Source: a virus. Taken from it: a stretch of 20,176 nucleotides of DNA. Numbering within the stretch: position 1 is the stretch's first letter; each line of letters opens with the position of its first letter. Positions 1-18,140 of this stretch are shown in pieces. The stretch spans positions 1 through 20,176 of the IMG/VR virus record IMGVR_UViG_3300035698_002909. One strand, written 5' to 3'. The notes under the pieces were generated by a model that made no database searches, was not told the origin of the DNA, and was given only the letters and a program-made list of their open reading frames with translations. The translations under genes and the position numbers were made by a program.

Positions 1-1710
1 ATCGATACCACCGTTATCAGAGAAGATTTTAACAGCGTTATCAGCTGCTAATTCACCTCTCACCAATACGCGACCTCCACCTGACTCTAGTGTTAGGTCA
101 ACACCAGCACCTGACATAGTTATGTCTGAGTTTGCTGCACCAGCAATAGAGAAAGCAGCAGTTGTATCAACTGTAATACCACCTGTTCCAGCATCAACAT
201 CAATTCCGCCATCAGCTGCACTTGCTTGAATTCTTACTGAATCAGCAACCGCGGCTTCGCTAGAAATTAAGCTTAGTTGCAATGCACTCGATGCCGAAAT
301 ACCACCCGCTGCTGAAACAAGTTCAACTGCAGACACCGCGGCTTCTTCACCTTTCACAACAACGCGACCTAGTGTCGATTGCAGGGTTAAGTCTGCGGCT
401 GCGGCCGACACTGTAAAGTTAGAGGCTGTTGCTGCATCCAAAGAAATTCCAGCAGCTGTATCAACTGATATCGCCCCAGCACTCGCTGAACCAACGGCAA
501 CCGTGTTAGCCACTGCTCCTGTTCCGATGTTTACAGCTTTAGCATTTGTCGCACCGCCAGCAACATTAACGGTTGTCGCTCCTTCACCAGCTCCGATTTC
601 TACGATGTTAGTTCCGCTTGAATCGCCAAGAGTCATTGTGCCTGTTTGAGCAGTACCACCAATTGTAATAGTTCCAGTTGTTGTGGATGCTCCGATTGCG
701 TAGGTAGAAGCGCCTACACCATCGACGTCGAAGTTACCTGTGCCAACATCAATTGCAACCGCTGTAGCACCTGTACTATTACCAATTGTTACAGAGTGAG
801 CAACTGCATTTGTTCCAATGTTTATTGCCCCTGTACCTGCATTTAGGACAAGACTTGTAGCTCCTGTTCCATTTCCTAAAGTTACGGTTCTGGCTGCTGC
901 ACCCGTTCCAATATTAATCGCAAATGCATCTGCGTCATTACCTATTCCAATTGCTGCAGCGGAAGAGTTCAGCTCTAGAACACCGTCTGAATCTAAAAGT
1001 AGGGTGTCATCAGAATTTAGGATGATATCGCCTGTTCCCGTAGATGTTAAAGTGATATGTCCTGTGCCTGAATTAAGAGCGATTCCAGTTCCAGCTGTAA
1101 CGTTACCAATTGTAATCGTTCTTGCTGCTGCACCTGTTCCTAGATTCATTGCTGCTGTATCTGCGTCGGATCCAATAGCTATTGTAGTACCAGCACTTTC
1201 CCAAGATCCTCCTGCGTCGAAGTCTACAGCTCCTGAAGCACCAAGGGTTGAGAATGATCCTGCTGCTGGTGTTCCTGATCCAATTGCTGGGGGTGCTGCA
1301 AATGCTGAACCAAGCTTCAATGGTGTTACAATTCTTGCATCATCAGTATAAGCTACTGCCTCTGCAGTTGTAGCTAGTTCAGCAATCCCTTTAACCGTTT
1401 CTGATGCATCTGGTGCTCCAGCAATCGCCAAATTGTCCGCGTAAGTCTTAATCGCTAAGGAACTTGAGGCTGTCGTATCTAGTGCTCCAGCAAAAGTAGC
1501 GTCTGTTGAAAGTGTTACTTGGTTTGTTTGCCAAACCCCGCCCCCTACATGAAAATACAAAAGGTTAGGAGATGCACTTTCATCCAACCATGGTTGCCCT
1601 TTAGGGTAATTAGTATCTGAGGTTGCTGGTGCCCTTTGGGCTATAATAGGACTCGGTAACACATTTACATATGGGGCGTCCCTTCCTAGGGCTTGCAATA
1701 ATTTTGCCAT
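1..1710 (-). CDS. Repeat-rich tail fibre protein, C-terminal part beyond window
   Basis: The reading frame is open from an ATG at 1710 to the left edge (570 residues, no stop), so the gene is incomplete. A good ribosome binding site, AAGGAA, sits 5 bases before the ATG. Residues 1-65 form a virion-attachment-like N-terminus. Residues 101-133 (SETVKGIAELAT, then TDDARIVTPLKL) match the phage tail-fibre repeat of the Phage_fiber_2 type. From about residue 177 the protein is almost entirely Ala/Gly/Thr/Ile repeats of the form NIGTGAAARTVTIGN (near 188-203, 265-280, 296-311 and 393-408). A second repeat type, DLTLxSxxGRVxVxGE, occurs near 440-455 and 538-553. Such repeats are typical of long beta-structured fibres. 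The role is probably host attachment; the receptor-binding tip would lie beyond the window. It is separated from the rest of the structural operon by a plus-strand cassette. Confidence 0.85.
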   Translation of the reverse strand, partial: MAKLLQALGRDAPYVNVLPSPIIAQRAPATSDTNYPKGQPWLDESASPNLLYFHVGGGVWQTNQVTLSTDATFAGALDTTASSSLAIKTYADNLAIAGAPDASETVKGIAELATTAEAVAYTDDARIVTPLKLGSAFAAPPAIGSGTPAAGSFSTLGASGAVDFDAGGSWESAGTTIAIGSDADTAAMNLGTGAAARTITIGNVTAGTGIALNSGTGHITLTSTGTGDIILNSDDTLLLDSDGVLELNSSAAAIGIGNDADAFAINIGTGAAARTVTLGNGTGATSLVLNAGTGAINIGTNAVAHSVTIGNSTGATAVAIDVGTGNFDVDGVGASTYAIGASTTTGTITIGGTAQTGTMTLGDSSGTNIVEIGAGEGATTVNVAGGATNAKAVNIGTGAVANTVAVGSASAGAISVDTAAGISLDAATASNFTVSAAAADLTLQSTLGRVVVKGEEAAVSAVELVSAAGGISASSALQLSLISSEAAVADSVRIQASAADGGIDVDAGTGGITVDTTAAFSIAGAANSDITMSGAGVDLTLESGGGRVLVRGELAADNAVKIFSDNGGID

Positions 1711-1764: not shown

Positions 1765-1790
1765 AACATGCTTTTATTAAAAAACATGTT
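1765..1790. repeat. Inverted repeat, candidate operator
   Basis: The arms AACATGCTTTT (1765-1775) and AAAAACATGTT (1780-1790) are complementary at 10 of 11 positions around a 4-base centre ATTA. The palindrome lies between the divergent tail fibre and helix-turn-helix genes, 5 bases upstream of the -35 box of the latter. It could be the binding site of that regulator (inference). The arms are A/T-rich and no gene reads into the repeat, so a terminator is less likely. Confidence 0.45.
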
Positions 1791-1795
1791 CTATA

Positions 1796-1824
1796 TTGCG
1801 TTAAACTGCTGTTAAGTGTATAGT
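1796..1824 (+). promoter_or_regulatory. Sigma70-like promoter of the plus-strand cassette
   Basis: TTGCGT (1796-1801) and TATAGT (1819-1824) are separated by 17 bases. The predicted transcription start, 7 bases after the -10 box, is position 1831, which is the A of the ATG of the next gene. The transcript would therefore be leaderless, and indeed no Shine-Dalgarno sequence precedes that ATG. Confidence 0.55.
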
Positions 1825-1830
1825 TGTGTT

Positions 1831-2025
1831 ATGACAGATAAATATTATACAATATATGAAATAGCAGACATGTTAAGGATAAACCACAGAAAGGTAGCAT
1901 CCTTAATAAGAAACAAAAAACTAGGGGCTGTAAACGTCGGAACAGAAAAGAGGGCTCTTTGGAGAATATTTGAAGGGCACTACAGGAAGTTTCTAGCAGA
2001 TACCTATAACGAAATGGAGGAGTAA
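1831..2025 (+). CDS. Small helix-turn-helix DNA-binding protein (excisionase/MerR-like fold)
   Basis: This is a 64-residue protein. YYTIYEIADMLRINHRKVAS at residues 4-23, followed by LIRNKKLGAVNVG and a short basic/hydrophobic wing, is the winged helix-turn-helix pattern of the HTH_17/excisionase-type family. The frame could also open at a GTG at 1816, but that codon lies next to the -10 box; the ATG at 1831 coincides with the predicted transcript start and is preferred. The gene heads a four-gene plus-strand cassette, diverges from the tail fibre gene and has a palindrome just upstream. It may regulate itself or the fibre gene (inference). A role in recombination directionality is possible, but no integrase is visible in the window. 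Confidence 0.7.
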   Translation: MTDKYYTIYEIADMLRINHRKVASLIRNKKLGAVNVGTEKRALWRIFEGHYRKFLADTYNEMEE

Positions 2026-2026
2026 T

Positions 2027-2224
2027 ATGAAAACAAACGAACTAATAGGATTCATGATCGCGGGACTTGGCGCCTTCTTCTGTATCCTAGGATATTACAC
2101 AAACAGGATCTCAGAAAAGATCGACAGCATTAACAAGAAAGCTGATGGGAGATTGAACTCACAGAATGCTAGGACTGATCAGCTTTATAAGATGTTTTGT
2201 GAACTGCTGAAGGATAAGAAATGA
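2027..2224 (+). CDS. Small membrane protein with coiled-coil tail
   Basis: This 65-residue protein has one hydrophobic segment (about residues 6-24, IGFMIAGLGAFFCILGYY) followed by a charged, probably helical tail (NRISEKIDSINKK onward). Positive charge just after the segment suggests that the C-terminus faces the cytoplasm. A strong GGAGG (2016-2020) inside the end of the upstream gene serves as ribosome binding site, and the ATG follows the upstream stop after one base. The next gene overlaps its stop as ATGA, so translation is probably coupled. The function is not recognised; a holin-like, antiholin-like or superinfection-exclusion role is conceivable from size and topology only. Confidence 0.65.
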   Translation: MKTNELIGFMIAGLGAFFCILGYYTNRISEKIDSINKKADGRLNSQNARTDQLYKMFCELLKDKK

Positions 2225-2316
2225 AATCGTTCTTGTACTTCAACTATTTCTTAATGTTCGTGATGATCACTTTTGCAATCGCGATGTTTGTACTTTTTTT
2301 AACAGGAGATTTTTAA
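2221..2316 (+). CDS. Tiny 31-residue membrane protein
   Basis: The gene starts at an ATG that overlaps the stop of the upstream gene (ATGA, 2221-2224) and ends at TAA 2314-2316. Almost the whole product is one hydrophobic helix, from about residue 4 to 28 (FLYFNYFLMFVMITFAIAMF and on), ending LTGDF. No separate ribosome binding site is needed if translation is coupled. The tight overlap on both strand and frame, plus the clear single transmembrane character, supports a real gene, though it is very short. No family is recognised. Confidence 0.5.
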   Translation: MKSFLYFNYFLMFVMITFAIAMFVLFLTGDF

Positions 2317-2330
2317 TACAGGAGAATAAT

Positions 2331-2471
2331 ATGGAAAAAATTATAACTAAATATGTAATGTTAACTTTATGCGTGTCGTTTTTACTACACTTCTATATGC
2401 CAACCAAAATCATGATATATGATGGTCTTAAGTCCAAAGAGATAATTCTTTTATACCATAAGATTAGGTAA
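2331..2471 (+). CDS. Tiny 46-residue membrane protein
   Basis: The 46-residue product starts at ATG 2331 with AGGAG (2320-2324) at good spacing. It begins MEKIITKY, has a hydrophobic stretch at about residues 9-23 (VMLTLCVSFLLHFYM) and ends in a short basic tail. It is the last gene of the cassette. Its stop lies 8 bases inside the convergent KTSC-like gene, so the two genes overlap at 2464-2471. Function unknown; membrane location is inferred from hydrophobicity. Confidence 0.55.
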   Translation: MEKIITKYVMLTLCVSFLLHFYMPTKIMIYDGLKSKEIILLYHKIR

Positions 2472-2934
2472 GCTTCTTGTATGGAAACTGCATATTCTTT
2501 AGAAGAACATTCATAGAACTACCCATGCTTGGCGACTTTCCAGCCCACCAACTTCCCCATTTGTTTTTGCCTTTTGTGCGTGCTGGAACCGCGCCTTTTT
2601 TGAACACGTCAAATATTTGAGGACTTACACCTTCATATGAATAAATGGATCCCTCATCTTTAGGGTATTTTCCTTTAAACTGAACAAGTAGATTGCCGTT
2701 TTTTGGATCAAATTTGAACGCGTTAATAACACTCGAATCCATTGATTTTTGCAGTGGTGGCATTTGTGGTGCTAGAGAAGCCTGGAGAACATCAATCCTA
2801 GAGGTAAGAAATTCTAATTCTTTTGCTATTTCTCCCTTTAATTCATCTGATAGAACTTCTCCAGACTGTACAACTTTATTTAGCCCAGAAAGCAACTCTT
2901 CTAATAGTTGTTGAAGGAGTTGTAGTTCATCCAC
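2464..2934 (-). CDS. Coiled-coil protein with KTSC-like C-terminal domain
   Basis: This is a 156-residue protein. Residues 1-55 are leucine/glutamate-rich and probably form a coiled coil. Residues 65-150 follow the KTSC domain pattern: SSVINAFKF, GNLLVQFKG, IYSYEGVSPQIFDVF, then W-rich GSWWAGKSPSMGSSMN. KTSC domains are small alpha/beta modules of unclear function, common in phages and near nucleic-acid enzymes. The start is GTG at 2934, one base overlapping the upstream TAG, with GGGGA 5 bases before it. An ATG at 2930 is out of frame. The gene is last in the minus-strand structural run. It may be virion-associated by position, but that is inference. Confidence 0.65.
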   Translation of the reverse strand: MDELQLLQQLLEELLSGLNKVVQSGEVLSDELKGEIAKELEFLTSRIDVLQASLAPQMPPLQKSMDSSVINAFKFDPKNGNLLVQFKGKYPKDEGSIYSYEGVSPQIFDVFKKGAVPARTKGKNKWGSWWAGKSPSMGSSMNVLLKNMQFPYKKLT

Positions 2935-4019
2935 TATTGTCCCCTAGCTGCATAAATCTTATGAAGTATTCCCAATAATGCTTGTTCGCCTGGCCCAGAC
3001 TGTGGACTCTGTTGCTGTTGCCCTTGTCTTTGTTGTAATTCCTGCAATTGTTGCTGCAACATTTGAATTTGTTGCATCACTTCAGGATTAAATTGTTGTT
3101 GTTGGGATTGCTGTTGTATCATAGATAAGATTCTATTTTCCAACTCTTGAATTTGCTGAGGATTTTGTGCTTGTTGCTGCAATTGTTGTTGAGCCTGTAG
3201 AGGCTGTTGTTGATCTGAAGCTACCTGTTGCTGCTGCATTTGTTGAGGTTGACCTGGCTGCTGCATCTGTTGTGGTTGATTCATCTGAGGCTGCTCTTGC
3301 ATTGCTGGATTAATAGGATCTTGCCTTGTCATCTCTTCTAACATGACATTTCTTTTGCCTTTAATAATGTCTGTTATCTTTTTCTTGAGCTTTTTGAATG
3401 CGGGAGATTTTTTATCCTCTCCTTTTTGTTCTAGTTGTGCGGTGATCATGCTTAAAAAGCTAAGCTGTTGTTTTGCAGAATCTGAAAGATTAGACAGGTC
3501 TGTGTCTCCTATGATCTCTTCGAAATAACTTTTGTTTTGTGTTGGTTCACCTGGTGCAACCTCTAAAGATTCACCAACCACATCTGTGATTTGCTGTGGG
3601 GCCTGTTGAGGGCTTACCTCTTCTTTCGCAATCTCTCCGCCTGCTGAAGCTGCTGTCGCGCCACCAGCGAGATATTTACTGATACCTGGAAACTTAGAAA
3701 TGAGACCAGGTGCTGCTTTAGATATCAATCTGGCACCGTATGCCATCGATCCTAGCTTTACACCTTCTTTTAGCATATCTTTGGTGATGTCATTTTTTTG
3801 TTTTTTCTTTTTTGCTGATATAACACCTGAAGCCTGATAGGTATCATTCGACTCTTGTTCCATATTCTTTGAAAAGAAATCAAGAATTCTCCCAGTTGAA
3901 TACCCTGAACTTTGCGCTTGCTTGATTTTAGGTGCTAGATTAGGAACCATCTTAATCAAATGGTTTAGCACTTCATCTTCACTATAACCTTTAGCAAGCG
4001 ATGTAAGAATCGGATTCAT
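2934..4019 (-). CDS. Gln-rich virion protein, probable internal/ejection protein
   Basis: This is a 361-residue protein. Residues 1-50 (GYSEDEVLNHLIKMVPNLAP, then KIKQAQSSGYS) are predicted helical. A lysine cluster at 70-76 is followed by an Ala/Gly-rich, weakly hydrophobic stretch at 88-130 that could interact with membrane. Residues 241-340 are a low-complexity tract with 51 glutamines in 100 residues. The start ATG overlaps the upstream stop as ATGA (4016-4019), with AAGGGG as ribosome binding site. Its place after the nozzle gene, next to two other Gly/Gln-rich proteins, matches where T7- and P22-type phages encode proteins ejected with DNA. The name is by position and composition, not by a recognised domain. 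Confidence 0.5.
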   Translation of the reverse strand: MNPILTSLAKGYSEDEVLNHLIKMVPNLAPKIKQAQSSGYSTGRILDFFSKNMEQESNDTYQASGVISAKKKKQKNDITKDMLKEGVKLGSMAYGARLISKAAPGLISKFPGISKYLAGGATAASAGGEIAKEEVSPQQAPQQITDVVGESLEVAPGEPTQNKSYFEEIIGDTDLSNLSDSAKQQLSFLSMITAQLEQKGEDKKSPAFKKLKKKITDIIKGKRNVMLEEMTRQDPINPAMQEQPQMNQPQQMQQPGQPQQMQQQQVASDQQQPLQAQQQLQQQAQNPQQIQELENRILSMIQQQSQQQQFNPEVMQQIQMLQQQLQELQQRQGQQQQSPQSGPGEQALLGILHKIYAARGQ

Positions 4020-5410
4020 TTTGCCCCTTTTAAGAAGTCAATCCACCTGCCATAATCTTGGAATATATAATTCAGAGAATCCAGCGGTGCATTTGTAAGT
4101 TCGCCTAGTTCGCCTTGTTGGTCTGCACTTAGTACTAGACCTTCATTCAAAGCCTTTGTAAGGCCCTCGTAATATTGTCTCCAGTCCAAGCCTTTCTCGT
4201 GACGCAATTTATCTCGCAATCCTAGTAACGAAACATCATCTGTAATGTTATCTTTTAAAAACTTCGCATAATCGTCTGTTATCTTTTGAGCAAGCTTAGG
4301 GTTGTCCTTACTGAATTTATCATAATCTGGAGTTACCTTACCTTGATTTCTAATAAACTCATTTGCATCACCAGCTAAAACATCCTGTGTAGATTTTTCT
4401 TTATAAGGTACTTTTGGTAATGAGCTGACCATTCTATTAGCTTCTTCTGAAAGAGGCTTAATGAGCATTTCAACTTCTGTTTTGCTAAGACCGCTATCTG
4501 TAAGTTTTGATCTAACGTATTCTTCATCGCCTGCTGCAACTAGTGGCTTAACTAGGTTTTCTAGTCTTTTTAGCTGGTCAGCTCTATATTCACCACCTCT
4601 GAATATTCCTGATACGATACCAGGTGTATTGGCATTGTCGAAATTTGAACGAACCGTTTTATACTTGTTGAAATCGGTCTCTGTTTTCTTGTACCACTCC
4701 TCAGGAGATAGGTTTTTATATTGTTGACCTATACGCGTGAATTGGTTCAGCTCTTCTGGAGTTGTGTTTTCCGGTAGTTTTTTCTCTGCATACTTTTGAA
4801 GCTCTTCTGATTTAGCCAGTTGTAGAGACTGAAGTCGGTTTCTTACCTCTTCTTGTGGAACACCTGCATAACGTTCTACCAATTTTTCGTATGGCTCACC
4901 AGTGACGAAAGACATTTGCATAAGATCAGGGTTTAAACCACCTTGACCTCCTACTCCGCCTTGACTAACGCTACCTTGATTAACGCCACCTTGAGTCGCG
5001 TTACCTCCTACCATACCTTCAATGCCACCACCACCTGAAACTGCGCCACCTGAAGTTGCACCGGCGTTTGTAGGCACCTGTCCACCTCCACCACCTTGCT
5101 GTCCGTTTCTACCCTGGTTATACATGTTCATGACAGCTTGCTTTTGAAACTGCGGTAGAACTGTATTAGTTAGTTGATCAGCTCCTGGTACACCTGCCGT
5201 AGATTGTGCCCACTTCATCGAAATATCAGCGGGGGTATCATTTGGATTCAACATAGACTTGAAGTTATCCAAAGCTCCCGTTTGTTTTTCCTGAATCATT
5301 CTTTGTTGCGCTAGCTGTTCAGGAGGGGCAAAATTCTTTCCAACTCCCTGAGCTAACATTTCTCCATATACTCCCGATAGAGATTTAGGGAGATCAACCA
5401 CCTGTACCAT
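4016..5410 (-). CDS. Putative internal virion protein with Gly-rich linker
   Basis: This is a 464-residue protein. An N-terminal region (1-98) is joined through a Gly/Gln/Asn/Ser linker at about 100-158, which carries short imperfect repeats such as GGVNQGSVSQGG, to a long, charged, mostly helical C-terminal region with no cysteine and no hydrophobic helix. AGGAG lies 8 bases before the ATG at 5410. The gene lies between two other candidate ejection proteins and overlaps the next by ATGA. A role in a DNA-ejection conduit is inferred from position. No peptidoglycan-hydrolase motif was found by eye. Confidence 0.5.
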   Translation of the reverse strand: MVQVVDLPKSLSGVYGEMLAQGVGKNFAPPEQLAQQRMIQEKQTGALDNFKSMLNPNDTPADISMKWAQSTAGVPGADQLTNTVLPQFQKQAVMNMYNQGRNGQQGGGGGQVPTNAGATSGGAVSGGGGIEGMVGGNATQGGVNQGSVSQGGVGGQGGLNPDLMQMSFVTGEPYEKLVERYAGVPQEEVRNRLQSLQLAKSEELQKYAEKKLPENTTPEELNQFTRIGQQYKNLSPEEWYKKTETDFNKYKTVRSNFDNANTPGIVSGIFRGGEYRADQLKRLENLVKPLVAAGDEEYVRSKLTDSGLSKTEVEMLIKPLSEEANRMVSSLPKVPYKEKSTQDVLAGDANEFIRNQGKVTPDYDKFSKDNPKLAQKITDDYAKFLKDNITDDVSLLGLRDKLRHEKGLDWRQYYEGLTKALNEGLVLSADQQGELGELTNAPLDSLNYIFQDYGRWIDFLKGAK

Positions 5411-5419
5411 TATTAACTC

Positions 5420-6094
5420 CTATACGTTACCCATTAACGGGCCATAGTTACTCCACATATCCGCAAGCCCTTGACCACCTTGTTGCATTCCCGGAAATCC
5501 TGCTTGTGCATATCCACCTGCGAATCCTGGTTCAGCTTGTCTTCTACCATACATAAACGGTTGAGCACCTAAAACGCTTCCAGACATAGAGTTATATTGA
5601 CCCATTAAGGAATTAGCTGCTTGTTGACCTAGGCCTGCTTTTAATTGCGCGAGTTGGTTTTGTAATGCTCCGCCTGCTGATCCAAGTGATTGCCCAAATC
5701 CTGATGAGGACATTGCACCACCCATTCCACCAGCGCCCGCAAACCTTTCTGCTAAACCAGGGATAGTCTGTTGATTGAATTGATCCATGTGTGGTTGTGC
5801 AAACTGACTCACAGCTTCCGAGCTTGGATCCATGTATTGGTTCATTAAGTCTAGTGACTTTCCATAACCTTGTCCAAGCTGTCCATTAGGACCTAGCATG
5901 CTTTGCATCTGCTTTAAAAGAGATTGCTGCTCCTTGGTCATGGTGTCCATTTTTTCCATTCCAGCCTCTTGACCACCGAAGCCACCGAGCATTCCTAATG
6001 CAGCTCCGATCCCCATGCCCCAAGGTCCCGCTCCAGCTCCTGAAGCTGCACCAGCTGCGCCACCTGCAAATCCTCTTCCCCAATCATAATTCAT
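5420..6094 (-). CDS. Gly/Ala-rich virion protein, probable ejection/pore protein
   Basis: This is a 224-residue protein. Residues 8-42 form a glycine-zipper-like hydrophobic stretch (GFAGGAAGAASGAGAGPWGM onward) that could span a membrane. Residues 48-115 are Gln/Met-rich and helical. Residues 120-170 hold a Gly/Ser/Ala segment with SSSGFGQSLGSAGGALQ then QLAQLKAGLGQQ, a pattern often seen in small podovirus virion proteins. The C-terminus is aromatic/Gly-rich. AAGGAG precedes the ATG at 6094. Small proteins with an N-terminal glycine zipper encoded right after the nozzle in P22/T7-like phages are commonly ejected into the cell envelope; this is the basis for the call. Confidence 0.5.
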   Translation of the reverse strand: MNYDWGRGFAGGAAGAASGAGAGPWGMGIGAALGMLGGFGGQEAGMEKMDTMTKEQQSLLKQMQSMLGPNGQLGQGYGKSLDLMNQYMDPSSEAVSQFAQPHMDQFNQQTIPGLAERFAGAGGMGGAMSSSGFGQSLGSAGGALQNQLAQLKAGLGQQAANSLMGQYNSMSGSVLGAQPFMYGRRQAEPGFAGGYAQAGFPGMQQGGQGLADMWSNYGPLMGNV

Positions 6095-6097
6095 TCT

Positions 6098-6580
6098 CTA
6101 ACTCTCCTTAAGGTAATTACAAGTAACGTCACATTGCACTAAAGCTTCAGTATAAGGATTTGTGAAAATTACTGAAGTCGAATTTAAACAAATATCTGGA
6201 TAACTTGCTGTAAAAAATATTCCATCAACCGTACTGCAGTTAGCTAAAATGCCGGCTGACTCGCGTAAGTTTTCTATCTCATGAGAAAATTGGATCGTCT
6301 GACCAGCTGAAATACTTCCTCCGTTTAGGCTAACAAGATCAAATGTTTTCCTATAGACATTTCTTAGTCTTTGGTCGTTGTCTTTCTGATAGTACTGTGA
6401 CGATGTTCCTTTTTCTTCTAACGAATATAACCCACCCTCTTTAGAGTTTACCGCATCGGTTACCTGCTTAAGCAGATTCTCTAACTTGTTTTCGAAGTTT
6501 TCTTTGTCTTCGATACTTGGTAGATTCAGGCTTTTTGCAAGCTGGGTAGTTATTTGTGGGTTGTCTGATGAGAAACTCAT
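6098..6580 (-). CDS. Conserved-type phage structural protein of unknown role
   Basis: This is a 160-residue protein. The frame opens further upstream at 6607, but the better start is ATG 6580. GGAGG lies 9 bases before it and the ATG overlaps the upstream TGA as ATGA (6577-6580). Residues 8-45 are helical and charged. The rest is probably beta-rich and holds four cysteines in the C-terminal part (NCSTVDG, DICLNS, QCDVTC). It lies between the nozzle gene and the ejection-type genes, so a tail or internal virion role is plausible. I do not recognise the family. Confidence 0.55.
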   Translation of the reverse strand: MSFSSDNPQITTQLAKSLNLPSIEDKENFENKLENLLKQVTDAVNSKEGGLYSLEEKGTSSQYYQKDNDQRLRNVYRKTFDLVSLNGGSISAGQTIQFSHEIENLRESAGILANCSTVDGIFFTASYPDICLNSTSVIFTNPYTEALVQCDVTCNYLKES

Positions 6581-9420
6581 ACTAACCTGCCTCCCCCTCT
6601 TGCCCAAATTTTAATCGCGTTCAACTCAAACCCTGACTGATGAGTATCTATCGTATTCATTAGGTCGTCATCATAAAACAGTCGGTAAGTTAAATATTGA
6701 CCATGGCAATTCGCATAGAAACGATGCCACGCATAGTTAGTTCCTGGAAGGTAGGTTTTATAATCTTGTGATATCCATTCACCACCAGAATCGTATGGTG
6801 TTAAAATAGAGGTATCTGCGTCAATTGAGAAGTTGTCATCGTCAATATACGTTACTTCATATAGACCACCGTTTAGCTCAATTGTTCCAGCGATATCTCT
6901 AAATGTAATAGTCACACCAGTTAACAGTCCGTGATTTTCCGATGTTATGACTCCAGGGTTTGTATACGATATATCCGATATGGAGCCAAACTGAGAAATT
7001 GCTGTGCTGAAACTCTTGTTTCCTACAATTAAATTCCCATTAATAGTAACGGTGCTATTGACCGACACGTCTACGGAAACAGCTGAACTTACCGACGCGT
7101 CTGTTTGGAAGTCTGTGTAAGGGCTGTTCATGGCCAAACCACTATCTGCGTAAGGACTGAAGTCTTTAGTTATGATATCTATGTTTTGGACTAATGCAAG
7201 TCTCCCATTCCCGATATAGGTAGCTAAATCGTCTGGATCAGGGGTGAACATAATTTGATCGTGAGAGGTTGACTCGTATATTTTTTCTTCAAAATTCCAC
7301 TGTGTTAGATCCAAGTTGTCATCATCAACAATAGATACCTGGTAAAACTTGTTGTTTAGTGAGGTGCTTACTGCTACGTCGTCATCTTCGTCAACAAAGG
7401 TCAAACCTGTTAAGTAAATAATCTCATTCTGCTCTAGATTGTGATTGATCACTTCAATACGAATGTTTGCTGTGTCTGACAACGTTACAGCTGTTACAGA
7501 AAGAGACTCTTGCTCAATCATATTAGTTAGCGCGTCTGCGTTCGTCTCAACGTCTGGATATTGATACCAATGGATCCAACCTTGTTGATTACCAGATGAA
7601 ATTGCAGGGAACTCGGCCGTATAAGATATATCCCAGCTTACCGGTTCATCCCACGAAATAGGAAGATCCCATGAAAGACCAGTTGGAGTGTTTAACTGAC
7701 CAAACACGGTCACGTTATCTCTAAATGAAGACCAACAACCATTCCTGTAGTTGTAAAGAAGAACTCTATTAGGGAATTTCTTACCTAGTCCACCTTCGGA
7801 ATAAGTCCAATAAACTAGCTCTTTGTAAAAGTCTCTCTCGGCTTGAACTCTTTCCTTTCCGCCCTCTTCATTGTGAAGCTCAAAAACCGTGTCTGGAATA
7901 TCTAAATCTATTCTCTGTACGTCTGATCCCGAAGAAGCGACTATAGCCTTATCACCTACCGCTAATACACCGTTATCAAACAACACTGTGGAGAAGGTGC
8001 TTTCGGATCCAAAGTCTGACGATATCCTTTCCCAGATGAAGGGTAATCCATATTCACCAACGTAACGTAGTTGCCATGTGGTTTTTTCGAAAAACACAAT
8101 GAGAGTATTCTTGTAAAATCTTGCCGATACTATTTCTTCGTTAGTAGGTGCATCGATAAACCCACCCTTACCAGGTATTGAAGAAATCCACGCGTCTTGC
8201 TGCAAAGGGTTACCTGTTTGAGAAAATCGGCATCTATTGAATATCTTAGTGGCACTAGCTGCGTTTGTCCCTTCATAAACATTCAACGCTAAAAGCCGAC
8301 CATAGTACTGAATCAATATCTTAGCCTGGAAAAGGAACGAGGTTTCATATTGATAGGTAGCTTTAACGGTTGCATCTGCTGTTAACGCAGGAGAAAAGTT
8401 AAGAACGATCGCGCCTGTTGCGTAATTGATAGTACCTGAATTTGTAGAAGGTGATCCGTTCAGTGTTCCTAATGGGTAAACGCCTGCTTGGTCCCTGAAT
8501 CCTACTATTGGATCTACGCTATTTTCTACTGTTATCGTTACTGACCCAGGAATAATTGGATTGTTTGCTAACGTGTCATTGTGTGTAACCCAAGGTGTTA
8601 CTACAGGGCTTCCAGCTAGAGTTTCATTGGTTATCTGTGTACCGGCTACCGCAGGGGTAAAGTCTGTCCACGTAGATAGATCAGGAGTCGACCGTATTCT
8701 GTTATTGGTGCTTAACGCAGGTGCTGCATTATTTGTTACAAAGAATTGCCTTTCTTCAGGTGTTGCACCTCGATAGTTAGCTGCCCAGAAAAAATCAGCA
8801 TCACTACCAGACCAAACTGTTGTAGTAGATGCGACGGAGAAATCATTACCGTTATATGAGTATACATATTTTGTATCGAAGAACGCTGTCTGTTCGCTAT
8901 TTATATTGGCTCTTTCTCTATTGTCAATTCCCATAGCTGGCAATGAAGGGAAATAACAAAACTCGATATCTACATTTGTGGCTACGCCTAAAGAGGGATC
9001 AAAGTTTAAACGCAGTTCGCCTGTTGAGTAATTGATAGTCCCGGTGCTGCTTCCTGCTTCTACAAGAATACCATCTTTTAATGTCGCATCCGTAAATGAT
9101 AGAGCTCCCACTGTTACAATTACCGAGCCTGGCTCTATTTCTGCATTAGGCTCCGTTGTACGCAATCCAAACGATATATCGGCAAATATATCCGCTACTG
9201 TATAGGATGCACCATTAGCCTGACTATTTAGCGTTACAGGCGTTGTAATGCACCTTCTAAGCCTACCTATCAGCTTAATGCCTTCACGCTTCTTTACCCT
9301 CTCACGCCAAGTATACGCGTTCTGCTGGGTTTGAAAAGCCTCGTCTATAACAAGAAAAGGCTTCTTATTCTTTTTCAAACCAGACTTAAACGCGGAAATG
9401 TTTATTGGCTGTAAAGGCAT
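6577..9420 (-). CDS. Tail nozzle protein (tail tubular protein B / P22 gp10-like) with inserted beta modules
   Basis: This is a 947-residue protein. The N-terminus (residues 20-53: KPFLVIDEAFQTQQNAYTWR, then VKKREGIKLIGRL) resembles the opening of podovirus nozzle proteins. The core at about 365-600 has propeller-like strands (ARFYKNTLIVFFEKTTWQLR). It ends in three consecutive SWD motifs at 583-597. Two copies of a PGS...GTINYxTGxxxLNF module lie at 97-160 and 290-358. Two FCCH-like modules (NHGLLTG...LNGGLYEV...DDNFSI pattern) lie at about 640-715 and 815-882. T7 gp12 is about 150 residues shorter; the difference is roughly explained by these modules. GGGAGG precedes the ATG, which overlaps the upstream stop (TAATG). 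The order adaptor, small gene, nozzle supports the assignment. Confidence 0.7.
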   Translation of the reverse strand: MPLQPINISAFKSGLKKNKKPFLVIDEAFQTQQNAYTWRERVKKREGIKLIGRLRRCITTPVTLNSQANGASYTVADIFADISFGLRTTEPNAEIEPGSVIVTVGALSFTDATLKDGILVEAGSSTGTINYSTGELRLNFDPSLGVATNVDIEFCYFPSLPAMGIDNRERANINSEQTAFFDTKYVYSYNGNDFSVASTTTVWSGSDADFFWAANYRGATPEERQFFVTNNAAPALSTNNRIRSTPDLSTWTDFTPAVAGTQITNETLAGSPVVTPWVTHNDTLANNPIIPGSVTITVENSVDPIVGFRDQAGVYPLGTLNGSPSTNSGTINYATGAIVLNFSPALTADATVKATYQYETSFLFQAKILIQYYGRLLALNVYEGTNAASATKIFNRCRFSQTGNPLQQDAWISSIPGKGGFIDAPTNEEIVSARFYKNTLIVFFEKTTWQLRYVGEYGLPFIWERISSDFGSESTFSTVLFDNGVLAVGDKAIVASSGSDVQRIDLDIPDTVFELHNEEGGKERVQAERDFYKELVYWTYSEGGLGKKFPNRVLLYNYRNGCWSSFRDNVTVFGQLNTPTGLSWDLPISWDEPVSWDISYTAEFPAISSGNQQGWIHWYQYPDVETNADALTNMIEQESLSVTAVTLSDTANIRIEVINHNLEQNEIIYLTGLTFVDEDDDVAVSTSLNNKFYQVSIVDDDNLDLTQWNFEEKIYESTSHDQIMFTPDPDDLATYIGNGRLALVQNIDIITKDFSPYADSGLAMNSPYTDFQTDASVSSAVSVDVSVNSTVTINGNLIVGNKSFSTAISQFGSISDISYTNPGVITSENHGLLTGVTITFRDIAGTIELNGGLYEVTYIDDDNFSIDADTSILTPYDSGGEWISQDYKTYLPGTNYAWHRFYANCHGQYLTYRLFYDDDLMNTIDTHQSGFELNAIKIWARGGGRLV

Positions 9421-11630: not shown

Positions 11631-12647
11631 CTATTCCGCTTGGTGACGATCAAAACGGTACGCCAGCCAATCGTAAACAGCTGAGCTGCTTGTGATTACA
11701 CTGCTTCCTAATTGCATTATGTACTTATCGCGCGAGTCGAAAGCGTCTTGTAAATTAAAGCCTTCTGGAATCTGTGGCTGAGTAGCACTTCCAGCCAACG
11801 GAACGACTCCAGACCCACCAGGTACTGCTACTGCAGGGCTTACGCCAGCTGCTGCTACTGCACTTGTTGGGAAGTCAAACGCTGTAAATCCGCTTGAATC
11901 CAGATCCAATGTAACAGATGACTCTGTTGCACTGTTGGTAACACTAAGAACACGAGCGTGAACGTTGTTTAGCTCCAACATACCAAATTCAACTGGTACA
12001 CGGAAGGACAGGATCTGTCCTGGTGTAAAGTCGTTTTTAGCTGTGAAGTAAACAACTGCTTGTGCTGCTTGTGAGATACCTGCAATCAAAGCATAACGTG
12101 GATACATTAGATTAGGATGATATTTCTTCACCGATCCAGCTGTTGCATCTGCTGCTAATGATAGTCCACCAGTAGCCATGTAACCAAGTGTGATGCTTAC
12201 ATCTGCTGTAACAGCTGTTACCTGGAAAGTATACCCTGCAAGCTGAAGCTCACCAGTAGTTCCATACAGACGCACGTAGTCACCTACAACAATACTTCCT
12301 GTGCTATCCATTGACACAACGTATGTACCAGCAGAGCCAGTAACAGCTGTTGTCGCAAGAGCTGCGTATACAGGAGGTTTAGCTGTATTGATGAATGTAA
12401 ATCCACCGCTAGTTACCGCCTCTGTTGATAGAATACCAGATGTAACCGCTTGATCTAATGTTTGAGCAGCATCTGCCGCAAAGCCTAGTCTCCAAGATGA
12501 TTCAACTGATGTTTCTGCTGCATCATCACCCCAAGCTGTTCTATTTCTTAGCACGAAATAGTCCGGCTCTGCTGACAAACGTACCTGTTTCATTAACGTT
12601 GAGTCGGAAGTAAAAGATCCGCCTTCAATATATTGATATGGCAACAT
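11631..12647 (-). CDS. Beta-rich virion protein after major capsid, probable head decoration
   Basis: This is a 338-residue protein. The frame extends to 12692, but ATG 12647 has a perfect AAGGAGG 6 bases upstream and is preferred. There are no cysteines, and Ala/Thr/Val/Ser/Gly dominate. Two FCCH-like modules are visible. The first, at about 95-160, has IVVGDYVRLYGTTG...LAGYTFQV. The second, at about 183-258, has DFTPGQILSFRV...FGMLELNN...RVLSV. The second module plus the stretch to DAFDSR (about 304) is clearly related to the separate 116-residue protein encoded upstream. It follows the major capsid gene by 11 bases and precedes a strong terminator, so high expression is expected. A decoration or capsid-surface role is inferred from this. 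Confidence 0.6.
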   Translation of the reverse strand: MLPYQYIEGGSFTSDSTLMKQVRLSAEPDYFVLRNRTAWGDDAAETSVESSWRLGFAADAAQTLDQAVTSGILSTEAVTSGGFTFINTAKPPVYAALATTAVTGSAGTYVVSMDSTGSIVVGDYVRLYGTTGELQLAGYTFQVTAVTADVSITLGYMATGGLSLAADATAGSVKKYHPNLMYPRYALIAGISQAAQAVVYFTAKNDFTPGQILSFRVPVEFGMLELNNVHARVLSVTNSATESSVTLDLDSSGFTAFDFPTSAVAAAGVSPAVAVPGGSGVVPLAGSATQPQIPEGFNLQDAFDSRDKYIMQLGSSVITSSSAVYDWLAYRFDRHQAE

Positions 12648-12658
12648 AATTAACCTCC

Positions 12659-13609
12659 TTAAATTCCTGTTGAGCGCAGATTTTGCACCCACAGATCGTT
12701 ATTGATACATTGACCTTGATAGAAATTGCAAGCTGCCATTTGTCTCAAGTGAGCAGGATCTGTCTGACCTCCTGCTGGAGTATAGAAATACTTAGCACGT
12801 CCACCCGCTTGGAATACAACTTTATATCCCTCTTGAGCAGTAATGAAAATATTTGCAATATCATTACCTAGCAGTGAAGCACTAGGAGTGATAGATCCTT
12901 GGCTTGATACGAAATAACGCACGTTGTTCACTCCACCCCATTCGCTTGAAAGAGTGTCGATAGCACCTGTTCCGTATTCAAACTTACGTCTGAATCCTGT
13001 TACTGCATTAAGTACTGGGATCATACGAGTATGACAAAGACCCATGTAACAGTCACCTAGTGGTGATGTACCGATCTTATCAGATGCATTGATCATGTTG
13101 GTGATATACTCTCCATCGTTACCCTGTAGCAATGCGACGATGTCGTCGGAATCGCTTAGAGATAGCTCTGTTGGGAGATCTCCGTTTGAACCACCAACTG
13201 AGTTGACAACAGACGCTGTTGACTCAAGGTTGTTTCTTTGTAGGATATCACTGGTTTCTTTATAAGCCTGTCCAAGTCTTGCTGCAGATGCATTTAGAAT
13301 AGGATCCTGGTTTGTCATTGCGACTTGTTTTGTAATAACTAGATAGGTTGCATAGTTACGTACACGGCAATCAACATCTACACGAGATAGTAGCTGGGAT
13401 GGCGGGTTTAACTGTGCATTATCTAGTGGTACCTCGAATGTATCGAGAGCGTCATAACGAGACTGGCGGTTGATAAAACCGTCGTTGTCCGCTACCTCTA
13501 CAACAGATGCAGCTAGATTATGGATATTGTTTCTTTCAGGTGTTGAAAGCAGCTTATCCGTAAAGTTTTGCTGAATCTGAGGGGGCATGTTATTTAAATT
13601 AACTGACAT
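12659..13609 (-). CDS. Major capsid protein, N4-gp56 type
   Basis: This is a 316-residue protein. The segment VDCRVRNYATYLVITKQVAM, then the DPILNASAARLGQAYKETSD helix and LQRNNLEST, follows the pattern of the N4-gp56 family of HK97-fold major capsid proteins. It is preceded by an early VPLDNAQLNPPSQL stretch and followed by GDCYMGLCHTRMIPVL and a C-terminal domain ending NNDLWVQNLRSTGI. GAGGTGAT lies directly before the ATG. The position after scaffold and before the decoration-like gene is the canonical one. The length fits the lower end of the family. Confidence 0.8.
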   Translation of the reverse strand: MSVNLNNMPPQIQQNFTDKLLSTPERNNIHNLAASVVEVADNDGFINRQSRYDALDTFEVPLDNAQLNPPSQLLSRVDVDCRVRNYATYLVITKQVAMTNQDPILNASAARLGQAYKETSDILQRNNLESTASVVNSVGGSNGDLPTELSLSDSDDIVALLQGNDGEYITNMINASDKIGTSPLGDCYMGLCHTRMIPVLNAVTGFRRKFEYGTGAIDTLSSEWGGVNNVRYFVSSQGSITPSASLLGNDIANIFITAQEGYKVVFQAGGRAKYFYTPAGGQTDPAHLRQMAACNFYQGQCINNDLWVQNLRSTGI

Positions 13610-13621
13610 ATCACCTCTGTT

Positions 13622-14383
13622 TTAAAGACCAGAAGCTTGACTCGCGTATGACATCATTTCCTCGTAGAGACGATTTTTTTCTGAAGCTGTAGACTTCATT
13701 GCTTGGGCTACAGGCCTCTTATCGTATGCCAATGGGGTTTGAACGCTTTTAGCATTCTTTTCCATCTTCCTCTCTATTTCCTTTGTCCGTCGTTGATTTG
13801 GTACTTTATCTAACAAATTCAACGCCTTGATGTATTTGTAGCTTTGAAGCGCCATCTTATATGGATCGTTTGTCGCAGCTATCATTGAGGCAAGCTCTTG
13901 GTCGTGTTTTTCTAATAGTTCTAATGTTTCTACATTGACAACATCATCAAAATCAGAAAATTTGGTCCGGAGTGAGTTAAGTTGACGCGCTTGGTCTTCT
14001 TGCGCAAGCCTTGCTTCAAGATCAGCGACTTTTTTTTCGAGAGGTTTTACTTGCTTGTTAGCAATTTTCTTCACCCGACCCGCTGGCACATACTCATCAT
14101 CTGGATCATCGAGATCTTCTTCTACTTGAACAGCTTCCGGCTTCTGCTTTTCAGCATACCACGCGTTTTGCTCTTTAAGCTTCTGATTCTCCCATTCCAT
14201 CTCTTTCTGACGTTGCCTCATAGCGCGCCAATTCCGTTCCTGTTCGTCTTGTTGGGCCGTGTCCTCTTCAACATTGGGCTCTTCGACTTGAGGCTCTTCC
14301 TGGTCTGCTATGTTAGATTCATTATGTTCAGTCTCTTGAGGTGCGACCTCTTCTTCTACGCTGTCTAGTTCCTGATCAGTCAT
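13622..14383 (-). CDS. Scaffolding protein
   Basis: This is a 253-residue protein. The frame opens at a TTG at 14419, but ATG 14383 with AAGGAA 5 bases upstream is the better start. Residues 1-50 are strongly acidic (Glu/Asp/Gln-rich). Helical, coiled-coil-like stretches follow at about 50-80 (RQRQKEMEWENQKLKEQ) and 105-140 (KPLEKKVADLEARLAQE). The C-terminal part is basic. This acidic, coiled-coil, capsid-adjacent layout is typical of phage scaffolds that are absent from the mature head. It is the first gene after a promoter and forms one unit with the major capsid gene, 12 bases downstream. Confidence 0.75.
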   Translation of the reverse strand: MTDQELDSVEEEVAPQETEHNESNIADQEEPQVEEPNVEEDTAQQDEQERNWRAMRQRQKEMEWENQKLKEQNAWYAEKQKPEAVQVEEDLDDPDDEYVPAGRVKKIANKQVKPLEKKVADLEARLAQEDQARQLNSLRTKFSDFDDVVNVETLELLEKHDQELASMIAATNDPYKMALQSYKYIKALNLLDKVPNQRRTKEIERKMEKNAKSVQTPLAYDKRPVAQAMKSTASEKNRLYEEMMSYASQASGL

Positions 14384-14460
14384 GAATTTCCTTTGCAGTG
14401 GTGAACTGCTATCAACCAAATACGGTGATGAACCCGAGTTACATCTTTCTTATAATTTAG

Positions 14461-14488
14461 AATATAATAGATAATTTGTCTATGTCGA
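14461..14488 (-). promoter_or_regulatory. Promoter of the capsid unit
   Basis: Read on the minus strand, TCGACA (14483-14488) and TATATT (14461-14466) are separated by 16 bases. The expected start, near 14454, gives a leader of about 70 bases before the scaffold ATG. That leader holds a 5-bp hairpin (GCAGT/ACTGC, 14395-14409) shortly before the ribosome binding site. The whole 110-base gap is A/T-rich near the promoter and is the widest gap in the minus-strand run, which supports a real control region. Confidence 0.5.
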
Positions 14489-14493
14489 AAATA

Positions 14494-14844
14494 TTAACTT
14501 CTAGTGTCGAAAGCGTCTTTAATATTCATTTCAGGTGTAAAAAGATTAGGTACCACACCAGACGAGGACGGAACACAAACAGGTGGTGAGGTGCCTTCAG
14601 AATACAAAAGAGACAGAGTAAATGGTGTCCAGTTGGTGGTATCCAACTCTGTCGTTATCGTATCTGATGAGGTGTCAATTACGCGTGTACGCTTGTTGTT
14701 TATCTCTTCCATCCCAAATAGTTTGCCCACTCGGAAAGAAACGATTTGTCCTACGGTAAAATCATGATCCTCTGTGAATGTAACGACGGCATTTTGTGCA
14801 TTTGTGATGGCACTTATTTCAGAATACGCCGGGTAGTTAACCAT
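14494..14844 (-). CDS. Partial paralogue of the 338-residue capsid-module protein
   Basis: This 116-residue protein consists of one FCCH-like module (HDFTVGQIVSFRV...FGMEEINNKRTRV) and a tail that ends in DAFDTRS. It aligns over its full length with residues 183-305 of the 338-residue protein: shared anchors are AQxAVVxFT, DFTxGQIxSFRV, FGMxExNN, GxSPxVxVP, SGVVP and DAFDxR. The paralogue stops just after DAFDTR, where the longer protein goes on. A 14-base stretch encoding this motif is identical in both genes. Its ATG overlaps the upstream gene by 8 bases, with AGGAAG upstream. It may be a minor head protein that competes or co-assembles with its relative (inference). Confidence 0.7.
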   Translation of the reverse strand: MVNYPAYSEISAITNAQNAVVTFTEDHDFTVGQIVSFRVGKLFGMEEINNKRTRVIDTSSDTITTELDTTNWTPFTLSLLYSEGTSPPVCVPSSSGVVPNLFTPEMNIKDAFDTRS

Positions 14845-15358
14845 TGTTTGGAAGCTTCCTGTCTTGGAAATCTTTGACCGGGTGATAAAGAGGGGTGTTG
14901 TCTGCTGTTACGCCGAACTTCTTGAATCCGAAGTATTCCATAGCCTCTTCCTGGTAGGCTTTTATGTCTGCTATCTGTTCGGGTTTATAGTTGTCTTTGT
15001 TTAACAACATATTAGGGAAGTTAGACCAGTGAGGAAGTGACCAACAAAACCAGGTGTATTGCAGCTTTGGATCTGTTTTAAACACTGTGGTGTTAGGCTC
15101 TGGGTATGGTCTCTTTTCTGATGTGACCATACGGCGAAGGAGCACATTTGTCATCTGTGCATCCTTCTTCTCGTGAACTGTTATGTAAAAAGTCTTACCG
15201 TCATATGGATCGCTATTAATGCTTTCGTTCAGATCTTCCACGAAACCTTTTATCATTTCGTGGCCCATGTCACCAGCTACTACGGTTTCCCCAGTATTAG
15301 CTGCGTCTATAGATATCTGACCAACTGTATCACGATCGGCATATGCACTTTTACTCAT
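14837..15358 (-). CDS. Conserved-type phage protein of unknown role
   Basis: This is a 173-residue protein. A longer frame to 15463 exists, but its first 35 residues overlap, in another frame, the 56-residue gene. ATG 15358 (product starting MSKSAYADRDTV) overlaps that gene's stop and has AAGGGC before it. The core FYITVHEKKDAQMTNVLLRR, RPYPEPNTTVFKTD, QYTWFCWSLPHWSNF and a C-terminal helical part with EYFGFKKFGV suggest a compact folded protein. It resembles conserved proteins encoded between portal and scaffold in podovirus-like genomes, but I cannot name the family or its function. Confidence 0.6.
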   Translation of the reverse strand: MSKSAYADRDTVGQISIDAANTGETVVAGDMGHEMIKGFVEDLNESINSDPYDGKTFYITVHEKKDAQMTNVLLRRMVTSEKRPYPEPNTTVFKTDPKLQYTWFCWSLPHWSNFPNMLLNKDNYKPEQIADIKAYQEEAMEYFGFKKFGVTADNTPLYHPVKDFQDRKLPNNG

Positions 15359-15521
15359 AACGCCCTTTGTGAGCTTGTGAACGGATCTTACCAGCTTCTT
15401 TATCCATAGTGCGGTCTGTACGCTCCATGTACTGATTAGTTTTTCCCATTTCTTTACCTGCAAACTGTGCTTTGCTTGGCTGATAATCTTTGTCGCTCAT
15501 TGCGCCTTTATTGTATTTCAT
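15351..15521 (-). CDS. Small charged 56-residue protein after portal
   Basis: The product starts MKYNKGAMSDKDYQPSKAQF and ends SQAHKGRYE; it is rich in Lys, Gln, Arg and Asp/Glu and probably helical. ATG 15521 lies one base after the portal stop. AAGGGG, inside the portal end, serves as ribosome binding site, and the stop overlaps the next ATG by 8 bases. A second in-frame ATG at 15500 is possible but has a poorer signal. This compact fit with both neighbours supports the gene, although it is short. Function unknown. Confidence 0.6.
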   Translation of the reverse strand: MKYNKGAMSDKDYQPSKAQFAGKEMGKTNQYMERTDRTMDKEAGKIRSQAHKGRYE

Positions 15522-15522
15522 T

Positions 15523-17597: not shown

Positions 17598-18140
17598 ATG
17601 AATTATTTATCACCTTTATATATTGCCAAGTTCTGGATGAAAGTTAAAGAAGATCCTGATTCCAAACCTATCCGCGATTCGTATAAATGGTACGGTAAAT
17701 GTTGGAATTGGACAGGATCCCTTCTTCAATCTGGTTATGGACGTTTTTATATAAATTCTCAATGCTTTAGAGCACATAGAGTATCATACTACCTTTATAC
17801 CGGAAGTGTATCAAAAGAAAAGTTAATATGCCACAGATGTGATAATCCAAGGTGTGTTAATCCGCTACATTTGTTTGAGGGTACTGCGAAAGATAACTCA
17901 ACAGACATGAAAATAAAAGGGAGAGGATCAAAGGGAAGGAAGTCTAAGTTATCGTCGTCAAAATACTATGGTGTTTTCTTAAGAAAAGAGAAAAAAACAA
18001 AAATATGGCGGTGCGTATTATCTCACAACTACAAGCAGTATAGACTTGGGGAGTTTGAAAACGCTGAAGAAGCTGCTAAAGTTTACGACGATGAGATAAA
18101 GAGACGCGGTTTTGATAAACCATTAAACTTTCCTGATTAG
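17598..18140 (+). CDS. HNH homing endonuclease with C-terminal AP2 domain
   Basis: This 180-residue protein is a free-standing homing endonuclease of the HNH-AP2 type. Residues 35-104 carry the HNH core: CWNWTG, AHRVSYYLYTG, ICHRCDNPRCVNPLHLFEGT and KDN, with His79, Asn88 and His91 as likely catalytic/metal residues and Cys81/Cys86 nearby. Residues 120-170 form an AP2-like DNA-binding domain (SKYYGVFLRKEKKTKIWRCV, then YRLGEFENAEEAAKVYDDEI). It is antisense to all its neighbours, and its stop overlaps the terminase stop by 4 bases (18137-18140). Such enzymes cut related genomes lacking the insertion and so spread; the target is probably in or near terminase or portal of relatives (inference). 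Confidence 0.9.
   Translation: MNYLSPLYIAKFWMKVKEDPDSKPIRDSYKWYGKCWNWTGSLLQSGYGRFYINSQCFRAHRVSYYLYTGSVSKEKLICHRCDNPRCVNPLHLFEGTAKDNSTDMKIKGRGSKGRKSKLSSSKYYGVFLRKEKKTKIWRCVLSHNYKQYRLGEFENAEEAAKVYDDEIKRRGFDKPLNFPD

Follow-up and report, generated by a model that had tools for sequence, protein, structure and literature searches.

The stretch of DNA analysed here, referred to as the window, is a 20,176-nt IMG/VR virus record whose late genes lie on the minus strand: a terminase gene with an intein, a portal gene of the P22 family (Pfam E 1e-64), a gene for a capsid-type protein, tail genes, ejection-type genes, a gene for a KTSC protein and a tail-fibre gene. Between the tail-fibre gene and the KTSC gene, which is the last of the preceding block, four co-directional ORFs of 64, 65, 31 and 46 aa fill the 641 nt from 1831 to 2471 on the plus strand, opposite to the late genes (Table 1). 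We refer to their products as the HTH protein, TM65, TM31 and TM46. The coordinates and ORF lengths given in the first-pass annotation were right; its title, which spoke of a reverse-strand cassette, holds only in the sense that the cassette runs against the late genes, the genes themselves being on the plus strand. The KTSC gene is convergent with TM46, and the two ends overlap (2464-2471). Relatives of the KTSC protein are present in L002, L007, L011-L014 and L023, and homologues of the tail-fibre protein flank the same kind of cassette in related records.

Table 1. Features of the cassette and of its flanks in the window
Feature	Position	Strand	Basis and remarks
Tail-fibre gene, 570 aa, continuing beyond the window	1..1710	-	phrog_972 tail fibre, E 8.5e-6; hotspot flank, divergent from the cassette
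AT-rich inverted repeat AACATGCTTTTATTAAAAAACATGTT	1765..1790	.	possible operator, 10/11 pairs
-35-like TTGCGT	1796..1801	+	17 nt before the -10-like hexamer; same layout in L130
-10-like TATAGT	1819..1824	+	6 nt before the HTH ATG
HTH_17 regulator, 64 aa	1831..2025	+	Pfam HTH_17; ATG start favoured over GTG at 1816
Shine-Dalgarno GGAGGAG of TM65	2016..2022	+	sequence
TM65, bitopic membrane protein	2027..2224	+	TM about 6-23, coiled-coil helix, C-terminal ARTDQLYKMFCELLKDKK; homologues
TM31, tiny one-helix membrane peptide	2221..2316	+	ATGA overlap with TM65; hydrophobicity
Shine-Dalgarno AGGAG of TM46	2320..2324	+	sequence
TM46, possible one-helix membrane peptide	2331..2471	+	Shine-Dalgarno and contiguity only; coding status uncertain
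KTSC-domain protein	2464..2934	-	Pfam KTSC, E 9.6e-8; last gene of the block preceding the cassette
Three genes (361, 464, 224 aa)	2934..6094	-	placed like P22 ejection block 16-20-7, judging by order and lengths

The 361-, 464- and 224-aa products are presumed to be ejection proteins; a profile comparison with P22 detected no sequence similarity of their genes to P22 genes. Among the flanking genes, the portal (91.6%) was the only one to stand out clearly in that comparison, followed weakly by the terminase (14%), and no homology to gp16 or gp9 emerged for the cassette flanks. In one related record, L035 (G007), an 869-aa protein that closes the ejection-type block (13348-15957) matches the phrog_938 endolysin (E 5e-7) and perhaps carries a virion muralytic domain. 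At the far end of the window, the large terminase gene (18137-20176, minus strand), inside which the window ends, is split by an intein (Pfam Intein_splicing, E 4.8e-13) that contains an endonuclease domain of the LAGLIDADG type (LAGLIDADG_3, E 3.5e-18), and an HNH_3 endonuclease gene (17598-18140, plus strand) lies between the portal and terminase genes and is oriented against them. A 947-aa tail protein (6577-9420, minus strand) has a C-terminal match to E1_FCCH, a ubiquitin-activating enzyme domain (E 1.2e-10). By eye, the 116-aa product encoded at 14494-14844 (minus strand) looks like a fragment, now diverged, of the C-terminal region of the 353-aa product encoded at 11631-12692 (minus strand). 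Searches with Rfam and for tRNAs returned nothing.

The four-ORF gene chain as such is real. When the region 1711-2471 was subjected to 2000 dinucleotide shuffles, the longest same-strand ORF chain obtained was 579 nt, as compared with the 641 nt observed, and a chain of at least four ORFs arose in only 3 of the 2000 shuffles. The GC content of the cassette is 0.340 versus 0.413 for the window, which places it at the 5th percentile.

The HTH protein scores 27.5 bits against Pfam HTH_17, where the gathering cut-off is 27, and falls just below the cut-off of the NCBIfam excisionase family. Its AlphaFold model is a confident winged helix (pLDDT 88), and the best solved matches of the model include the Xis of mycobacteriophage Pukovnik and Streptomyces BldC (4j2n, 6ama; TM-score 0.67-0.69), with a modest Foldseek E-value of 0.03. 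The protein thus has both sequence family and fold in common with the HTH_17, excisionase and BldC winged-helix proteins. Unlike excisionases, however, it heads a membrane-protein operon and does not lie beside int. A close relationship to one known excisionase operon was considered and rejected, because no tyrosine integrase was found in 13 relatives. Scans of viral contigs with the single sequence and with a profile gave no relatives of the HTH protein, which reflects a limit of the seed pattern, since L130 has one. We think that the HTH_17 protein most likely regulates its own operon.

The sequence upstream of the HTH gene can be written TTGCGT-17-TATAGT-6-ATG, and that of the L130 gene TTGCAT-17-TATTCT-6-ATG. 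A TAnnnT hexamer exactly 6 nt before the ATG was found in 7 of 12 HTH genes against a background of 3.9%; the binomial probability is 9e-8 before allowing for 14 spacings, and applies to a pattern that was noticed and tested in the same data, with some start codons picked by hand. The same hexamer at the 6-nt spacing occurs in only 3 of 146 genes of the TM-coil family, to which TM65 belongs (see below). A Shine-Dalgarno sequence, as defined by our pattern, precedes 105 of the 146 TM-coil genes and none of the 12 HTH genes. Because the -10-like hexamer lies 6 nt before the ATG and a Shine-Dalgarno sequence is missing, the HTH mRNA is probably leaderless. The lambda cI mRNA transcribed from PRM is leaderless, and the likeness to the HTH gene of the window is suggestive only. 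The first-pass annotation had credited the cassette with its own promoter and an operator-like palindrome. The former is supported by the layout repeated in relatives but not by a consensus promoter scan, which found no promoter for the cassette and fewer sites than in shuffled sequence. As for the palindrome, the repeat AACATGCTTTTATTAAAAAACATGTT is present, but it is marginal, as 5% of shuffles contain one as good.

TM65 is modelled as a single helix comprising residues 3-64 (pLDDT 88). A single-sequence search identified one relative, in L003, and the use of an alignment then yielded relatives in eight records. Common to these proteins are a hydrophobic helix at the N-terminus, a coiled coil and the C-terminal motif RTDxLYxMFxxLLKxxK, which is invariant at R, D, Q, L, Y, K, M and F in nine sequences. 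A sister type has the same membrane anchor and the C-terminal sequence DFHGRLCxIEERxK; the scan for this type returned at least 162 IMG/VR stretches, of which 80 were fetched for mapping. Lysine and arginine are commoner on the C side of the TM helix in 23 of 27 members, and by the positive-inside rule this excess argues for a cytoplasmic coil. The TM-coil proteins, as we call both types, are accordingly predicted to be inner-membrane proteins whose coil is cytoplasmic. The statement in the first-pass annotation that the membrane proteins have no known family is correct for curated libraries, TM65 having no match among Pfam, NCBIfam or PADLOC families, but TM65 does have a family, which is defined here: TM-coil is an undescribed and common family of membrane proteins. 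The best library match of the L003 homologue is PHROG 1009 (function unknown; E 1.1e-4), which aligns with the TM and coil region only, does not cover the conserved C-terminal motif and has no match to TM65 of the window. Searches by tblastn with TM65, the L004 homologue and a DFHGRL protein found no relative in 50,697 phage isolate records, nor did those with the L004 homologue and the DFHGRL protein in 72,556 plasmid records. The record L079 carries ten tandem TM-coil genes (2-2202) of both C-terminal types, mostly with overlapping stops and starts.

The status of the two last ORFs is less uniform. TM31 is far more hydrophobic than its own shuffles (fraction 0.003), and membrane ORFs of 24-52 aa lie directly after 17 of 146 TM-coil genes versus 10 of 412 other genes (P 4e-5). 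Analogues of 34-36 aa are located at the same place in L106, L123 and L142, and in L106 and L142 the order of HTH gene, TM-coil gene and 36-aa membrane peptide is that of the window. This recurrence of small membrane ORFs behind TM-coil genes supports TM31, which is plausible as a real gene. The case for TM46 is weak: neither its hydrophobicity (fraction 0.12 of shuffles) nor its codon usage (equalled by 34% of spurious ORFs) is distinctive. No homologue was found for TM31 or for TM46. One could envision from these results that only the HTH and TM65 genes are genuine, that TM31 and TM46 are chance ORFs and that the cassette is a degraded moron. We consider this improbable, given the Shine-Dalgarno sequence before TM46 together with the evidence just presented for TM31; in any event, it mainly limits the list of parts and is compatible with any of the functions proposed below.

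Comparison of this position in related phages, which the first-pass annotation had suggested, revealed variable content. The site in relatives holds, between the fibre gene and an ejection-type gene, a regulator and one to ten antisense TM-coil genes, or it is empty. Small genes on the opposite strand are present in the interval of the window, G002, G003, G006, G007, G009 and G013, in which both flanks are readable, and of G008, G010 and L023, in which one flank is readable; the fibre-to-ejection/KTSC interval contains no gene in G001, where it measures 134 nt, or in G012, where it measures 13 nt. All five convincing Pfam HTH_17 genes in 15 records sit in this hotspot, four of them followed by a TM-coil gene, and the chance of such placement is about 1e-5 by a simple binomial over genes that may share descent. 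The 80 loci fetched by TM-coil similarity, some of which are the same contigs as the earlier records and which include two pairs of near duplicates, contain 13 HTH genes, 12 of them within a TM-coil run and nine at the first position of the run. Automatic recognition of the flanks placed 12 of the 80 TM-coil runs between fibre and ejection genes and 20 more beside one recognised flank; the remainder lie by capsid, portal or terminase genes, in early operons, or are unclassified. The fibre-ejection site is a favourite of the TM-coil family, though the family is not bound there, and the HTH regulator seems to be specific to this site. The HTH protein of the window is 51% identical to that of L130, whereas no similarity that convinces was seen between the ejection-type proteins next to them, which suggests that the module moves apart from its flanks. 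In the hotspot of G002, the HTH and TM-coil genes are followed by one for a Dcm-like DNA methylase (L026, 10882-11622), as judged by eye. Operons that combine ParA, a ribbon-helix-helix (RHH) protein and a TM-coil gene were observed in G009 (C1, 21787-23003) and in L108, hinting at plasmid-like maintenance in some relatives.

The proposal in the first-pass annotation that the cassette is a moron is well supported by a hotspot with variable or no content, by genes that run against the late genes and by the conserved promoter of the regulator. The best reading is that the moron would be transcribed independently, as suggested by its opposite strand and the conserved placement of the promoter. 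With respect to timing, no tyrosine integrase was found in 13 relatives, among which a resolvase-type recombinase occurs in two and ParA in one; for this reason, expression early in infection appears at least as likely as expression in a lysogen. The scans of genome contigs detected only one phage-like contig, L023, in an alphaproteobacterial MAG, in which it may be misbinned. Elsewhere within the order and class of L023, the TM-coil profiles found nothing beyond weak matches, and the portal profile nothing beyond weak partial ones.

The site between P22 genes 16 and 9 is a known moron in rapid flux (PMC2629481, PMC8022706). This "ant moron", consisting of the immI region and sieA, lies between the last ejection gene and the tailspike gene, and its content is highly variable and missing in some phages (PMC2629481, PMC8022706). 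In the P22 record, gene 16 is followed by sieA, orf59a and mnt in antisense orientation, then by arc and ant, and then by the tailspike gene 9. The regulator is thus on the spike side and the membrane protein on the ejection side, with promoters of their own and in opposition to the late operon. The window cassette occupies the corresponding place by gene order and likewise has its regulator on the fibre side and its membrane proteins on the ejection side. Unlike that of P22, it forms a single divergent run, with a probably leaderless HTH_17 regulator and one-pass coiled-coil proteins. Comparison of the cassette with SieA, Mnt, Arc and Ant by phmmer and profiles uncovered no homologue (best E 0.035 in the five-protein set). 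The likeness to P22 is one of place and layout, not of descent. The gene set found in this known kind of place is new.

Our working model is that the cassette constitutes an independently transcribed moron of a podovirus lineage with a P22-type portal, at a hotspot bounded by the ejection-type genes on one side and the tail-fibre gene on the other. A sigma70-like promoter in the gap between fibre gene and cassette would start the HTH_17 mRNA. TM65, and probably TM31, would be made downstream and inserted in the inner membrane, and TM65 is predicted to have its N-terminus out, with the coiled coil and the conserved C-terminal motif in the cytoplasm. Against a related superinfecting phage, the membrane protein would then most likely act by hampering entry or early steps, in the manner of SieA in P22, and the one to ten paralogues that the relatives' cassettes contain would be the outcome of diversification to counter competitors among phages. 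SieA is a small inner-membrane protein with a conserved cytoplasmic motif near its C-terminus, encoded by a gene antisense beside the ejection genes (PMC10883804). It has three predicted TM segments and the sequence FxRYPxEAxxFNK, whereas TM65 has one TM segment and neither this motif nor any similarity to SieA. Superinfection exclusion at the inner membrane is the function that we tentatively prefer on the basis of place, layout and paralogue expansion, while holding it to be short of probable. Against this reading, the fibre-ejection position is not required, as some TM-coil genes are located in early operons or near the genes for capsid, portal or terminase. A bolder formulation, which we regard as doubtful, is that uncultured phages with a P22 portal possess, in TM-coil, a new and very widespread family of proteins for superinfection exclusion or host takeover, with a common anchor and coil, interchangeable C-terminal recognition motifs (RTDxLYxMF, DFHGRLC), tandem arrays beside the fibre gene and a leaderless BldC/Xis-like switch.

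Alternatively, the TM-coil proteins might be cytoplasm-facing anchors that function in early host takeover or anti-defence, with the C-terminal motif binding a conserved host protein and no role in exclusion. The near-invariance of the two C-terminal motifs, in proteins that are divergent elsewhere, would be consistent with such a function, as would the location of some TM-coil genes in early operons by YqaJ- and RecT-type genes, the failure to find an integrase in relatives and the lack of a TM-coil match in PADLOC. For a plain early gene, however, there would be no need of a dedicated regulator that recurs beside it at the fibre-ejection site, and we think that this alternative is somewhat unlikely.

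Another scenario invokes a membrane tether. The phi29 protein p16.7 consists of an N-terminal membrane anchor followed by a coiled-coil region. TM65 resembles it in having an N-terminal TM segment and a coiled coil, and a related protein of TM65 gave a weak PHROG gp16.7-like match (E 0.03), but TM65 is a single helix to residue 64 without a predicted C-terminal DNA-binding domain. In this scenario, a small HTH_17, RHH or XRE protein would bind phage DNA and the TM-coil protein encoded beside it would anchor the complex at the membrane for replication or partition, as a two-protein version of p16.7. TM-coil genes do adjoin HTH_17, RHH or XRE genes at eight places in 15 records, to which the ParA-RHH-TM-coil operons of G009 and L108 may be added. 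Nevertheless, G002 and G009 also contain solitary TM65 homologues amid structural genes, no DNA-binding partner was recognised for most of the TM-coil runs of the 80 loci, and autoregulation accounts for the pairing of HTH and TM-coil genes equally well. Such a tether is, in our opinion, quite unlikely.

A gene order with a regulator at the head of one or several tiny membrane peptides, together with weak matches to holins and spanins, also recalls a toxin-antitoxin or lysis-like unit, in which the peptides would damage the membrane and the HTH protein would keep them off until needed. The first-pass annotation had raised a compact lysis unit, and had named a late lysis module with a known holin in all relatives as a finding that would refute its reading; such a module was looked for and not found. 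No holin family gave a match better than E 0.07, the best of the holin/spanin type being E 0.079 for TM65 and E 0.013 for one homologue. A lysis module is unlikely and was rejected on the grounds of endolysin neighbours, none of which was seen beside TM65 or TM-coil genes in the relatives' maps read, of the presence/absence pattern, the site being empty in G001 and G012, and of topology. Since, in addition, TM65 homologues occur without any regulator and the coiled coil is predicted to be cytoplasmic, unlike that of a spanin, we judge the toxin or lysis-like reading to be very unlikely.

To our knowledge, the variability of the fibre-side moron in P22 was noted long ago, and only the P22 version has been studied. 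Here, an unrelated gene set is found in the P22-matching place throughout a large uncultured lineage. The TM-coil family to which its membrane protein belongs is common, with at least 162 stretches for one motif type, yet none turned up in the isolate phages and plasmids that we searched, and its two nearly invariant C-terminal tails would be expected to have a specific binding partner. The leaderless promoter proposed for the regulator makes a simple, testable prediction of the transcript start. With these natural variants at hand, one can ask why the site collects genes and whether exclusion functions are favoured there.
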